Source: Halovivax limisalsi
GTDB lineage: Archaea > Halobacteriota > Halobacteria > Halobacteriales > Natrialbaceae
Direction: 5' to 3'
Assembly: GCF_023093535.1 (NCBI RefSeq)
Contig: NZ_CP095757.1
Span: forward strand, 2,170,001-2,234,000
Length of the DNA stretch: 64,000 nt
In this document: positions 55,743 through 60,482 of the stretch, in pieces
How the letters are laid out: every line of letters begins with the position of its first letter
Numbering within the stretch: position 1 is the stretch's first letter
Position numbers and translations under genes: made by a program
Notes under the pieces: model-generated
Told to the model about the DNA's origin: nothing
The model's database searches: none
Seen by the model: only the letters and a program-made list of their open reading frames with translations

Positions 55743-57287
55743 ATGGCACAACAAACCGGTAGTGGAATTCTATACGACATTTACCGAACCCGGGTCGGTG
55801 AACCGACGACACACGACGAGGTTCGAGGGTACTGGGTGTTTCTGACCGGACTGGTGTTGGGAACGCTCGGGATCGTCCTGTTCCTGCCGAGTACGTCACC
55901 CGGTGGTGCCACGGGCTTGACGGTACGGGAGGCGAGCATCTTCCTCTCGGCGGTCGGGCTGGCGATGCTCGTCGCAGGTCCGGTCATCCGGCTTCCGCTC
56001 CAGTCGTGGGCGAACTACGCGGCGTACGTCGGGCAGGCTGTCTGTTTCGTCGCGGCGGTCTGGTTCCTCCTCGTGTTCCCCGCCGAGTGGAGCGTTCAGA
56101 CGGGGAACCAACCCGTTCTCGTATTGTACGCCCTGGGGCTGGCCAGCATCACGATCGGGAGCGTCATCGCGCCGCTCCTCGCCAGTGGGGCCACCGACGA
56201 TGTTGTGGCCGGTGGGCCCAACCCAAGCGCGGCCGAATCCGACGCGGCCGAGGTCCGTCGCGAGCGCGATCGGCTCGAAGACGAAATCGAACAGGCGCGA
56301 CGCGAATCGGACGACGGTGCCGCCGCACGGGCGACCCTGCAATCGGACGTCGACGCCCTGTACGCGAGTCAGGCCCGGTTCGAACTCTACGAGGACGCCG
56401 CGAACGAGTGGCGATGGCGCTTCCGACATCGAAACGGGAACGTCGTCGCCACGAGCGGCGAGGGCTACACGCGCAAGCACAACGCCCAGAAAGGGATGCA
56501 GAGCGTCCGACGGAACGCACTCGGCGCGGAGACGCTACTCGTCGAGCGTGAAGCGGAGCTCCCACCCGCGGACGAGCGCTTCGAACCCGTCACGGAACTC
56601 GACAGTCGGGCCGCGTTCGAAGTCGAGGCGGACAGCGCCGGCGAGTATCGCTGGCGATTGCGCCACGACAACGGCAACATCATCGGCGATAGCGGCGAGG
56701 GATACGCCTCGCGAAGCAACGCACAGCGGTCGATCGACCGGATTCGCGAGACGGCCGGCTCGGCGAGCTACCTCTGGTTCGATCCCACGGGCTTCGAAGT
56801 CTATCGAGACAAAGCCGGCGAGTGGCGGTGGCGATTCGTCCACCGCAACGGCAACATTCTCGCCGACAGCGGAGAGGGCTATACGCGACGCAACGACGCC
56901 AACCGGGCCGTCGAACGCATCCGTGACCGGATCGACGACCTGACGTTCGACGTGTACGAAGACGACGCGGGGGAGTACCGCTGGCGGCTCCGCGGCGGCA
57001 ACGATCAGATCGTGGCCGACAGCGGCGAAGGATACACTGCTCGCGACGACGCCACCGAGGCGGTCGACAGAGTCCGACAGTACGCCCCGGATGCGAACGT
57101 TCTCGACATCGGGCTGGCGACGTTCGAGATCTACGAGGACAAGAGCGGGCAACACCGCTGGCGGTTGCGCCATCGCAACGGAAACATCCTGATGGACAGC
57201 GGGGAAGGGTACGGAGATCGGAGCGCGGCTCGTGACGGTATCGAGAGCGTCAAGCGGAACGCGCCGACCGCCGAACTGCGGACCTGA
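55743..57287 (+). CDS. Membrane protein with five DUF1508 repeats (CdpA/DUF7139-like)
   Basis: This 514-residue protein has four membrane helices in residues 30-145, then a charged coiled-coil-like segment (about 165-205). Five DUF1508 repeats follow (about 212-262, 291-340, 350-398, 401-448 and 460-508). Each repeat has the pattern FE-Y-D-GEW-RWR-HRNGNI-DSGEGY-R-A. The N-terminal membrane part resembles the domain of the haloarchaeal cell-division protein CdpA, an FtsZ-ring organiser. That link is from memory and uncertain. DUF1508 repeats elsewhere (YegP) have no fixed role. The gene stands alone with its own promoter. Confidence 0.72.
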   Translation: MAQQTGSGILYDIYRTRVGEPTTHDEVRGYWVFLTGLVLGTLGIVLFLPSTSPGGATGLTVREASIFLSAVGLAMLVAGPVIRLPLQSWANYAAYVGQAVCFVAAVWFLLVFPAEWSVQTGNQPVLVLYALGLASITIGSVIAPLLASGATDDVVAGGPNPSAAESDAAEVRRERDRLEDEIEQARRESDDGAAARATLQSDVDALYASQARFELYEDAANEWRWRFRHRNGNVVATSGEGYTRKHNAQKGMQSVRRNALGAETLLVEREAELPPADERFEPVTELDSRAAFEVEADSAGEYRWRLRHDNGNIIGDSGEGYASRSNAQRSIDRIRETAGSASYLWFDPTGFEVYRDKAGEWRWRFVHRNGNILADSGEGYTRRNDANRAVERIRDRIDDLTFDVYEDDAGEYRWRLRGGNDQIVADSGEGYTARDDATEAVDRVRQYAPDANVLDIGLATFEIYEDKSGQHRWRLRHRNGNILMDSGEGYGDRSAARDGIESVKRNAPTAELRT

Positions 57288-57357
57288 TCCACGCCGGTCG
57301 CTTCCCGACCTGTTCGGATCGTATCTGATCGGGACCGTTGGCGCCCTTGAACAAGCA

Positions 57358-57518
57358 TCCGCGAGCGAAGCGAGCTGTTCACCGGCGGCGGAGCCGCCGG
57401 CACTTTTTCATCGAAGTTTTTGCGGTGAGTGGGTTGCGGGCCCTTGGTCCGCAACCGAATGCCGTGGCGGCGGAGCCGCCACGCGGGTCGCCGGAGGCGA
57501 CCCCGAACCGGAAAAAGT
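57358..57518. repeat. Cluster of GGA-loop hairpins
   Basis: Between two genes lie four hairpins. CCGGCGGC-GGA-GCCGCCGG (57382-57400), CGTGGCGGC-GGA-GCCGCCACG (57463-57483) and GGGTCGCC-GGA-GGCGACCC (57485-57503) each have a perfect stem of 8-9 bp and a GGA loop. GGTTGCGG (57432-57439) pairs with CCGCAACC (57449-57456) over a nine-base loop. The cluster is bordered by ACTTTTTC (57402-57409) and its inverse GAAAAAGT (57511-57518). A mirror repeat GCGAGCGAAGCGAGC lies at 57361. Confidence 0.7.
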
Positions 57519-57534
57519 TCGGTGCGGAACAACG

Positions 57535-57546
57535 CGCTTATGCGGC
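57535..57546 (+). promoter_or_regulatory. TATA-like box for helicase gene
   Basis: CGCTTATGCGGC lies 21-32 bases before the ATG at 57567, immediately after the hairpin cluster. Confidence 0.5.
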
Positions 57547-57566: not shown

Positions 57567-60482
57567 ATGACCGACGGGGACGCGGCGGCCTTCACCCACC
57601 TCGGATCGGCCGTCCGCGACGCCCTCTCCGAGCGCGGCTTCTCGACGCCGACGCCGCCGCAGCGACTGGCGATTCCGCCGCTCGCGGCCGGGGAGAACAC
57701 GCTGGTGATCGCCCCCACCGGGAGTGGCAAGACCGAGACGGCCATGCTGCCCGTCTTCGACCACATCGTCGCCGATCGCGATGGGCGCCAGGCCACCCTC
57801 GACGGGGCGAGCGGCGGCGCGGACTCGGACGTCACCGAAGCGAGCGCCGACGTCGATGCGGAGCCGCCCGTCGACGGCTTCCGGGCGCTCTACGTCACGC
57901 CGCTCCGGGCGTTGAACCGCGACATGCTCGATCGCCTGGAGTGGTGGGGCGAGTCCCTCGACGTCTCCGTCGACGTCCGCCACGGCGATACGACGCAGTA
58001 CCAGCGTTCGAAGCAGGCGGAGGATCCGCCGGACGTCCTGATCACCACGCCGGAGACCATCCAGGCGATGCTCACCGGCGAGAAACTACGCGAGGCGTTC
58101 GAGTCGCTCTCGCACGTCGTCGTCGACGAGGTCCACGAACTCGCCGCGTCGAAGCGCGGCGCCCAGCTCTCGATCGCCCTGGAGCGACTCGTCGAACTGG
58201 CCGGGCCGTTCCAGCGGGTCGGCCTCTCGGCGACCGTCGGCGATCCGGGGGAGGTCGGCCAGTTCCTCACCGGCGGCCGACCCTGCGAGGTCCGGGAGAT
58301 CGACGTGGGGTCGAACGTCGACGTGACGGTCCGCGAGCCCACGGTGACCGACGAGGACCGCGACCTCGCCGGCACGCTGATGACGGAGGTGACGACCGCG
58401 AGTCACGTCCGGCTGATCCGCGACGTCGTCGCCGACAACGAGTCGACGCTCGTCTTCGTCAACACGCGCCAGACCGCCGAAGCGCTCGGATCGCGGTTTC
58501 GCGAACTCGACCTGCCGATCGGCGTCCACCACGGCTCGCTGTCGAAGTCGGCCCGGGTCGAAGTGGAGGACGACTTCAAGGCGGGCGAGCTGGACGCGCT
58601 GCTGTGTACCTCCTCGATGGAACTCGGGATCGACGTTGGGCGCGTCGACCACGTCGTCCAGTACCAGAGCCCGCGGCAGGTGACCCGTCTGCTCCAGCGG
58701 ATCGGCCGGGCGGGTCACCGCACGGACGAGGCTTCGTCGGGCACGATCGTCACCACGCGGGCGGACGACACGTTCGAGGCGATCGCCATCGCCCGCCGGG
58801 CGCGTTCGGGCGAGGTCGAGGACGCGGCGATCCACGAGGGGAGTCTGGACGTCGTCGCGAACCAGATCCCGGCGATCGTCAAGAGCGCCGGCGACACCCG
58901 CGTCGACGACGCCTTCGAGATCATCTCGCGGGCGTATCCGTTCCGAGCGCTCACTCGCGAGACGTTCGTCGAGGTCCTCTCGGAACTCCACCGCAACCGG
59001 ATCGTCTGGTACGACGAGGCCGCAGACCGGATCGAAGGCAGCGGGAACACCTGGCAGTACGTCTACGCCAATCTCTCGATGATCCCGGACGAGGAGACCT
59101 ACGAGGTCCACGACATCGCCTCGGGGGGCCAGATCGGGACGCTCGACGAGCGATTCGTCGTCAACTTCGCCTCGCCGGGCGAGATCTTCATCCAGCGCGG
59201 CGAGATGTGGCGCATCGCCGAGGTGGACGACGAGGAGGCCGTCGTGAAGGTGAGCCCGATCGAGGATCCGGCGGGCGAGGTCCCCTCCTGGATCGGCCAG
59301 GAGATTCCGGTCCCCCTCGACGTGGCGGGTGAAGTCGGCGAGATACGCGCCGTCGCCCAGCCGCAGTTCGCCGGCGGGGCCGACGAGGACGCCGTGGCGC
59401 GCGAACTCGAGACCCGGTATCCGAGCGATCGGGCGACGCTGGCGTCGGCGCTCTCGCAGCTCGAACGACAGGTCGACGGCGGCGATCCGATGCCGACCGC
59501 GGACCGGATCGTGATCGAGCGCCAGGGTCGCGACGTCGTCGTCAACGCCTGTCTGGGCCACAAGACTAACGAGACGCTCGGCCGCGTGCTCACCTCGCTG
59601 CTCGGCCAGCAGTCCGGGTCGTCGATCGGCCTGGAGATCGATCCTTACCGGATCGAACTCGAAGTGCCGACGAGCGTCGCGACGAGCGACGTCCTCGACG
59701 TGCTCTTCGAGACCGATCCGGATCACGTCGAGGCGATCGTCGAACTGGGACTGAAGAACGCCGACGCGCTCGCGTTCCGGCTGGCCCAGGTCTCGGGCAA
59801 GTTCGGCGCGCTCAAGCGCTGGGAGGGCTCGGGTCGGCTGTCGAACGATCGGTTGCTCGCCGCGCTCGAGGACACGCCGATGTACGAGGAGGCGATCCGC
59901 GAGGTGTTCCACGAGGACCTCGACACCGATGCCGCGGCGAGCGTTCTCAGGGCGATCCAGTCCGGCGAGATCGACGTCGAGACGGTCCGCGGTCGAACCG
60001 CCGTCGGCTCGGGCGGCCACTCCTCGGGGAAGGAACTGCTCGCCCCCGAGAACGCCGACGCGAGCATCATCGAGACCGTCAAGGAGCGCATCCAGGACGA
60101 TCGCGTCATCCTCCTCTGTACGCACTGTACGGAGTGGCTCTCCCGGACGAAAGTGCGACGGGTGCCCGACCAGCCGTCCTGTCCCGACTGCGGCTCGACG
60201 CGCATCGCCGCGCTCAACCCCTGGGCCGACGAGGTGGTCGACGCCGTGCGCGCCGCGGAGAAGGACGACGAACAGGAGGAGATGACTCAGCGCGCGTTCC
60301 GCTCGGCGAGTCTGGTCCAGAGCCACGGCAAGCAAGCCGTGATCGCGATGGCGGCCCGCGGCGTCGGCCCGCACAACGCCGCGCGCATCATCAACAAACT
60401 CCGCGAGGACGAGGCCGAGTTCTACCGCGACATCCTCCGCCAGGAGCGCCAGTACGCCCGGACGCAGTCGTTCTGGGACTGA
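57567..60482 (+). CDS. Lhr-type DEAD/DEAH-box ATP-dependent helicase
   Basis: This 971-residue helicase has motif I APTGSGKTETAML, motif II DEVHEL, motif III SATVGDPGE, and the C-terminal motifs CTSSMELGIDVG, QYQSPRQVTRLLQRIGRAGH (V and VI). Beyond the RecA cores comes a long Lhr-like region and, at about residues 840-890, a zinc ribbon (CTHCTEW... and CPDCGSTRI). Archaeal Lhr proteins unwind RNA-DNA and DNA forks in repair and recombination. The ATG at 57567 follows a TATA box; the frame to 57429 crosses the hairpins. Confidence 0.85.
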   Translation: MTDGDAAAFTHLGSAVRDALSERGFSTPTPPQRLAIPPLAAGENTLVIAPTGSGKTETAMLPVFDHIVADRDGRQATLDGASGGADSDVTEASADVDAEPPVDGFRALYVTPLRALNRDMLDRLEWWGESLDVSVDVRHGDTTQYQRSKQAEDPPDVLITTPETIQAMLTGEKLREAFESLSHVVVDEVHELAASKRGAQLSIALERLVELAGPFQRVGLSATVGDPGEVGQFLTGGRPCEVREIDVGSNVDVTVREPTVTDEDRDLAGTLMTEVTTASHVRLIRDVVADNESTLVFVNTRQTAEALGSRFRELDLPIGVHHGSLSKSARVEVEDDFKAGELDALLCTSSMELGIDVGRVDHVVQYQSPRQVTRLLQRIGRAGHRTDEASSGTIVTTRADDTFEAIAIARRARSGEVEDAAIHEGSLDVVANQIPAIVKSAGDTRVDDAFEIISRAYPFRALTRETFVEVLSELHRNRIVWYDEAADRIEGSGNTWQYVYANLSMIPDEETYEVHDIASGGQIGTLDERFVVNFASPGEIFIQRGEMWRIAEVDDEEAVVKVSPIEDPAGEVPSWIGQEIPVPLDVAGEVGEIRAVAQPQFAGGADEDAVARELETRYPSDRATLASALSQLERQVDGGDPMPTADRIVIERQGRDVVVNACLGHKTNETLGRVLTSLLGQQSGSSIGLEIDPYRIELEVPTSVATSDVLDVLFETDPDHVEAIVELGLKNADALAFRLAQVSGKFGALKRWEGSGRLSNDRLLAALEDTPMYEEAIREVFHEDLDTDAAASVLRAIQSGEIDVETVRGRTAVGSGGHSSGKELLAPENADASIIETVKERIQDDRVILLCTHCTEWLSRTKVRRVPDQPSCPDCGSTRIAALNPWADEVVDAVRAAEKDDEQEEMTQRAFRSASLVQSHGKQAVIAMAARGVGPHNAARIINKLREDEAEFYRDILRQERQYARTQSFWD

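Follow-up and report, generated by a model that had tools for sequence, protein, structure and literature searches.

The window, a stretch of 64,000 nucleotides (G000:C1:2170001-2234000) from a 3.89-Mb single-contig haloarchaeal genome, carries a cluster of hairpins between two genes on the forward strand. The upstream gene encodes a DUF7139 domain and five DUF1508 repeats (hereafter the DUF1508 gene), and the downstream gene encodes an lhr-type helicase. From the stop codon of the DUF1508 gene to the first T5C motif of the cluster the distance is 116 nt. The features of the locus are as follows.

55743-57287, forward strand: upstream gene with DUF7139 and five DUF1508 repeats, its message predicted to end in the element
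57355-57377, forward strand: left-hand module GCATCCGCGAGCGAAGCGAGCTG, a weak stem, common to other copies (blastn)
57382-57400, forward strand: hairpin H1, 8-bp stem with GGA loop, immediately before the first T5C (-17.2 kcal/mol, z -3.7)
57403-57409, forward strand: CTTTTTC (T5C), where rightward transcription is predicted to end, from its sequence and the Haloferax volcanii T5C motif (PMC7237163)
57403-57521, forward strand: core element, match of covariance model R1 (71.4 bits, E 5e-11)
57412-57426, forward strand: left arm CGAA-G-TTTTT-G-CGGT, including the second T5, pairs with the right arm
57432-57456, forward strand: hairpin H2, GGTTGCGGGCC/GGTCCGCAACC, within the extra two-hairpin module (imperfect stem, 11 bp, 91%)
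57463-57483, forward strand: hairpin H3, perfect 9-bp stem with GGA triloop
57485-57503, forward strand: hairpin H4, perfect 8-bp stem with GGA triloop, the family's common inner hairpin
57507-57521, forward strand: right arm ACCG-G-AAAAA-G-TTCG, partner of the left arm by pairing and covariation
57511-57517, reverse strand: CTTTTTC (T5C), from its sequence, for leftward transcription
57537-57542, forward strand: CTTATG, the TATA-like box of lhr, located beyond the element and conserved in relatives without it
57567-60482, forward strand: lhr-type helicase gene (DEAD, Helicase_C, WH_Lhr, DEAD_assoc)

An earlier note on this DNA had described three perfect stems with identical GGA loops and one further stem, and all four are found at 57382-57503, the perfect stems being 8, 9, and 8 bp long. 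It had also described an inverted repeat bordering the cluster. The opposed CTTTTTC/GAAAAAG blocks (ACTTTTTC at 57402-57409 and GAAAAAGT at 57511-57518) lie where it placed them, but they do not border all of the stems because the first hairpin (57382-57400) falls outside. The pairing of the arms (57412-57426 with 57507-57521) extends beyond these blocks and is interrupted by two G.G mismatches. As a whole, the 171-nt stretch folds 4.7 SD (RNA) and 5.9 SD (DNA) below shuffles, with a strong RNA fold in both orientations. A search of the window against Rfam returned no family at the gathering score, and a tRNA search found none. At 57360-57375, GCGAGCGAAGCGAGC is a mirror repeat and not an inverted repeat; the true inverted form, CCGCTCGCGAAGCGAGCGG, is present in some relatives.

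The window has a GC content of 69%, which would favor the appearance of stems by chance in intergenic DNA. This explanation is refuted, with next to no probability left to it, by shuffle, reversed-pattern, permutation, and outgroup controls. Triloop stems of at least 8 bp with a GGA or TCC loop number three in the window and none in five third-order Markov shuffles. In a 464-kb sample of the genome, on which the genome-wide statistics are based, GNA or TNC loops close 11 of the 20 triloop stems of at least 8 bp found between genes and 3 of the 35 in coding DNA. Since three of the four intergenic GGA cases in these 464 kb are the window's own stems, GGA is to be seen as part of a broader preference for C(GNA)G / C(TNC)G loops. 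The observation that the stems differ in sequence and share one loop is true of the copy in the window; elsewhere in the family, different loops occur, both within and outside the GNA/TNC type.

The window cluster represents an expanded member of a dispersed haloarchaeal repeat family. In the same genome, a blast search with the 171-bp query recovered eight strong and many partial copies, with query positions 1-78 matching other copies at 85-96%. The 18-mer TTTTTCATCGAAGTTTTT occurs there 13 times exactly and 25 times at three or fewer mismatches, compared with once for the reversed control, and about 25 copies of the element are present in total. The family plan consists of a GC hairpin, CTTTTTC, an arm NNNNG-TTTTT, at least one GC hairpin, and AAAAA-GNNNN; in this genome it takes the form of a GC hairpin, CTTTTTC, ATCGAAG-TTTTT, at least one GC hairpin, and AAAAAG-TTCG. 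The search across haloarchaeal genomes that the earlier note had proposed reveals a widespread family. A strict pattern was found in 90 of 292 Halobacteria genomes (reversed control 0), and a covariance model matched in 46 of 59 sampled Halobacteria genomes. In a draw across the phylum at E 1e-4, the same model matched 9 of 11 Halobacteria and none of 69 other Halobacteriota genomes. The genera that carry the family in a named scan include Natronomonas, Haloterrigena, Natrinema, Natronococcus, Haloarcula, Halomicrobium, and Halovivax. With the 171-bp query, haloarchaeal plasmids gave three partial matches and a phage collection gave none, and a pattern scan picked out 65 stretches in viral contigs. 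Neither the sequence nor a description of the family was found in the openly accessible literature searched, so its novelty is provisional. A second class was also seen in which T4/A4 replaces T5/A5 (GCTTTTCATCGAAGTTTTG ... CAAAAG) and which has its own conserved left module (L052, L054, L051, L055, and relatives).

The paired arms vary in sequence, and their complementarity is maintained. The 4-base arms flanking G-TTTTT and AAAAA-G are complementary in 132 of 137 copies (shuffled mean 47, maximum 63), and in 31 of 33 copies (9.9 when shuffled) once the two commonest types are set aside, though these counts are not independent events because the permutation ignores relatedness. The arm types, about ten in number, are CGAA/TTCG, CGAC/GTCG, CCAT/ATGG, CCAC/GTGG, CAAA/TTTG, GCAA/TTGC, GGAA/TTCC, GAAA/TTTC, GAAC/GTTC, and CAAC/GTTG. 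Between arm and T tract, G faces G in 216 of 224 cases, copies in more than one locus being counted repeatedly, and the G.G mismatch is therefore conserved. RNAalifold recovered the arm helix unprompted. On the alignment, 90.3% of cells are paired, compared with 41.9-54.2% for slid structures, and pairing changes are two-sided in 138 cases and one-sided in 9, with G-U pairs being rare. Covariation of arms and stems, together with the strong fold in both orientations, is what would be expected of a stabilizer or processing site at the mRNA 3' end, where the long stem would protect the message or be cut by a nuclease and polymerase would not be stopped. Helices selected as RNA do not usually show so few G-U pairs or such an imbalance between one-sided and two-sided changes, however, and the invariant part of the element is the T5 tracts on both strands. 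We consider this explanation improbable.

Where the gene to the right faces the element, its stop codon lies within -10 to +20 nt of the element's right end in 55 of 75 cases, mostly at -2 to +5, while a stop codon lies in the same range of the left end in 1 of 85. A right-hand gene transcribed away from the element commonly starts 38-52 nt from it, and a TATA-like box often lies in between. Convergent genes flank 43 of 98 copies, compared with 28 of 207 intergenic gaps of at least 100 bp (p ~1.5e-8; genes called with a self-trained, home-made caller and the orientation background taken from one genome). Divergent genes flank a minority of the copies.

Placement at gene ends also bears on whether the element is mobile. 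The earlier note had called the cluster MITE-like, and a dispersed repeat with complementary arms is indeed what is found. As a non-autonomous mobile element (MITE/SMR-like), it would have its arms as terminal inverted repeats, a transposase acting in trans, and a preference for gene ends. The dispersed copies in one genome are 82-87% alike, the arms within one genome tend to share a sequence that differs from those in other genomes, some copies have an extra hairpin module inserted, tandem copies with gene tails occur, and the element is missing along with the DUF1508 gene in congeners, all of which would be compatible with mobility. Nevertheless, visual inspection of copies showed no short target duplication, no transposon with matching ends was noticed in a non-systematic look, up to five species retain copies at orthologous gene ends, the right end sits within a few bases of stop codons, and the internal mismatch is conserved. 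At lhr, the congeners are missing the gene and the element together, not the element alone. We judge mobility unlikely, if somewhat less so than a role in stabilizing or processing messages. Membership in the REP/RAYT group was rejected, as no Y1 transposase (PF01797) was found in this genome or in G004, both of which have the element. With no target duplication seen and no Y1 transposase despite about 25 copies, the element is not classed as a MITE, REP, or PATE.

The reading that we favor is that the element is a haloarchaeal bidirectional transcription terminator, to which we assign a probability of roughly 70%. Work on Haloferax volcanii identified a T stretch closed by C as the termination motif between genes; T5C halted 95% of transcripts in vivo, and some termination sites have a hairpin ahead of them (Berkemer et al., 2020, PMC7237163). 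The element has such a T stretch in CTTTTTC on both strands; the GC-rich hairpin followed by a U-tract that marks an intrinsic terminator is present as H1 and CTTTTTC, in the forward direction only. A polymerase moving rightward would thus meet H1, then CTTTTTC, then the second T5, while one moving leftward would reach CTTTTTC 0-5 nt past the facing gene's stop codon and the arm in most copies that have a facing gene. The arms, lying outside the inner hairpins, could form one long stem, and the inner hairpins may serve as interchangeable modules. For the window, this predicts that the DUF1508 message ends in the element and does not run on into lhr. Several points count against a terminator. 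T5 is uncommon after stop codons in this genome (14 of 224 gene ends), so T5C is not supported as its usual terminator, a T5C a few nucleotides past a stop codon should suffice without arms or extra hairpins, and the copies between divergent genes do not fit. Among the roles that the earlier note had suggested, ending the upstream message is nonetheless the best supported, given the opposed T5C blocks, the GC hairpin before the forward one, and the right ends of the family at stop codons.

Control of the Lhr helicase, the other role that had been put forward, does not fit the locus. The element lies about 45 bases upstream of the lhr start codon, where a promoter-proximal element or an attenuator might be placed, but the TATA-like box of lhr is outside the element and is conserved where the element is absent. 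In all four congeners, lhr directly follows a phosphoesterase gene, without the DUF1508 gene and without the element, and other copies of the element adjoin unrelated genes. A regulatory element of lhr is thus highly improbable. The DUF7139/DUF1508 gene is whole here, and only partial relatives occur elsewhere in the genus. Because the congeners are without both gene and element and have only these partial relatives, the DUF1508 gene and the putative terminator came into this genome, or disappeared from the others, together, and their joint presence and absence fits insulation of lhr and speaks against Lhr control. Lhr was not found encoded on the viral contigs.

Archaeal termination signals are known mainly as bare T tracts, and archaeal RNA polymerase is not known to need a hairpin. 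Bacterial intrinsic and bidirectional terminators resemble the element in having a GC hairpin followed by U5, on the forward side, and in serving convergent genes from both sides; the element differs in that, on the reverse side, the T tract comes before the hairpin and almost adjoins the stop codon. Like bacterial REP/BIME sequences, the copies are extragenic palindromic repeats near gene ends, where ending or stabilizing of messages has been proposed, but no GTAG/CGTC tag was seen, the genome is without a RAYT-type transposase, and the stem sequences are not conserved. Fungal mitochondrial double-hairpin elements share the combination of variable stems and maintained pairing in another type of genome, and are not known to be placed at gene ends. 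The SMR-A and PATE sequences of Haloquadratum walsbyi are likewise short haloarchaeal repeats that are dispersed, do not code for protein, and contain inverted repeats or palindromes, SMR-A inserting into IS605-type elements and PATEs carrying IS605-type palindromes (PMC3119063), whereas the present copies lie at gene ends in a genome without the Y1 transposase. In its predicted action the element resembles intrinsic terminators and the Haloferax volcanii T5C terminators. The latter share T5C, here inside CTTTTTC, and the hairpins before some sites (PMC7237163). That work describes a motif, while the element recurs as a family in which two T5C blocks face each other, the arms pair, and the hairpins can be exchanged. 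With opposed T tracts that do not vary, arms that covary, and a fixed distance to stop codons across the class, the family would be a defined and searchable type of terminator, would make 3' ends predictable in many haloarchaeal genomes, and could offer parts for gene insulation.

The element is found at several orthologous gene ends shared by two to five species of the genus. At these loci the facing coding DNA is about 84-92% alike, and the inner hairpins differ throughout with their pairing kept; across species, one locus has GGTGCGC/GCGCACC, GGTTCGCC/GGCGAACC, and GGTTCGCGC/GCGCGAACC. The extra two-hairpin module (approximately 57428-57483 in the window) is found again in further copies within this genome; one locus has it in this genome and lacks it in two congeners. 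Because one-sided changes and G-U pairs are so few, the data suggest that arms and hairpins are each replaced as a whole at the DNA level, by template switching or cassette exchange, and not stepwise under RNA selection. Whole hairpins replaced quickly with pairing kept would offer a natural case for studies of palindrome maintenance. We propose tentatively, and with slightly more doubt than conviction, that these are haloarchaea-wide, undescribed, modular terminators acting in both directions, in which copying or exchange of units at the DNA level, instead of base-wise repair, keeps the palindromes perfect, the structure persisting at orthologous gene ends as the sequence turns over fast.

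Further arrangements of copies were observed. At G000:C1:120268-121120 (L006, L007, L031), two near-identical inverted copies lie about 700 bp apart and have an identical inner hairpin, which suggests local gene conversion. Among L269:1331-1678, L270:1435-1761, L132, and L135 there are tandem copies, with units of 142 bp and 163 bp, and copies in which the tail of the flanking gene is repeated past the element.
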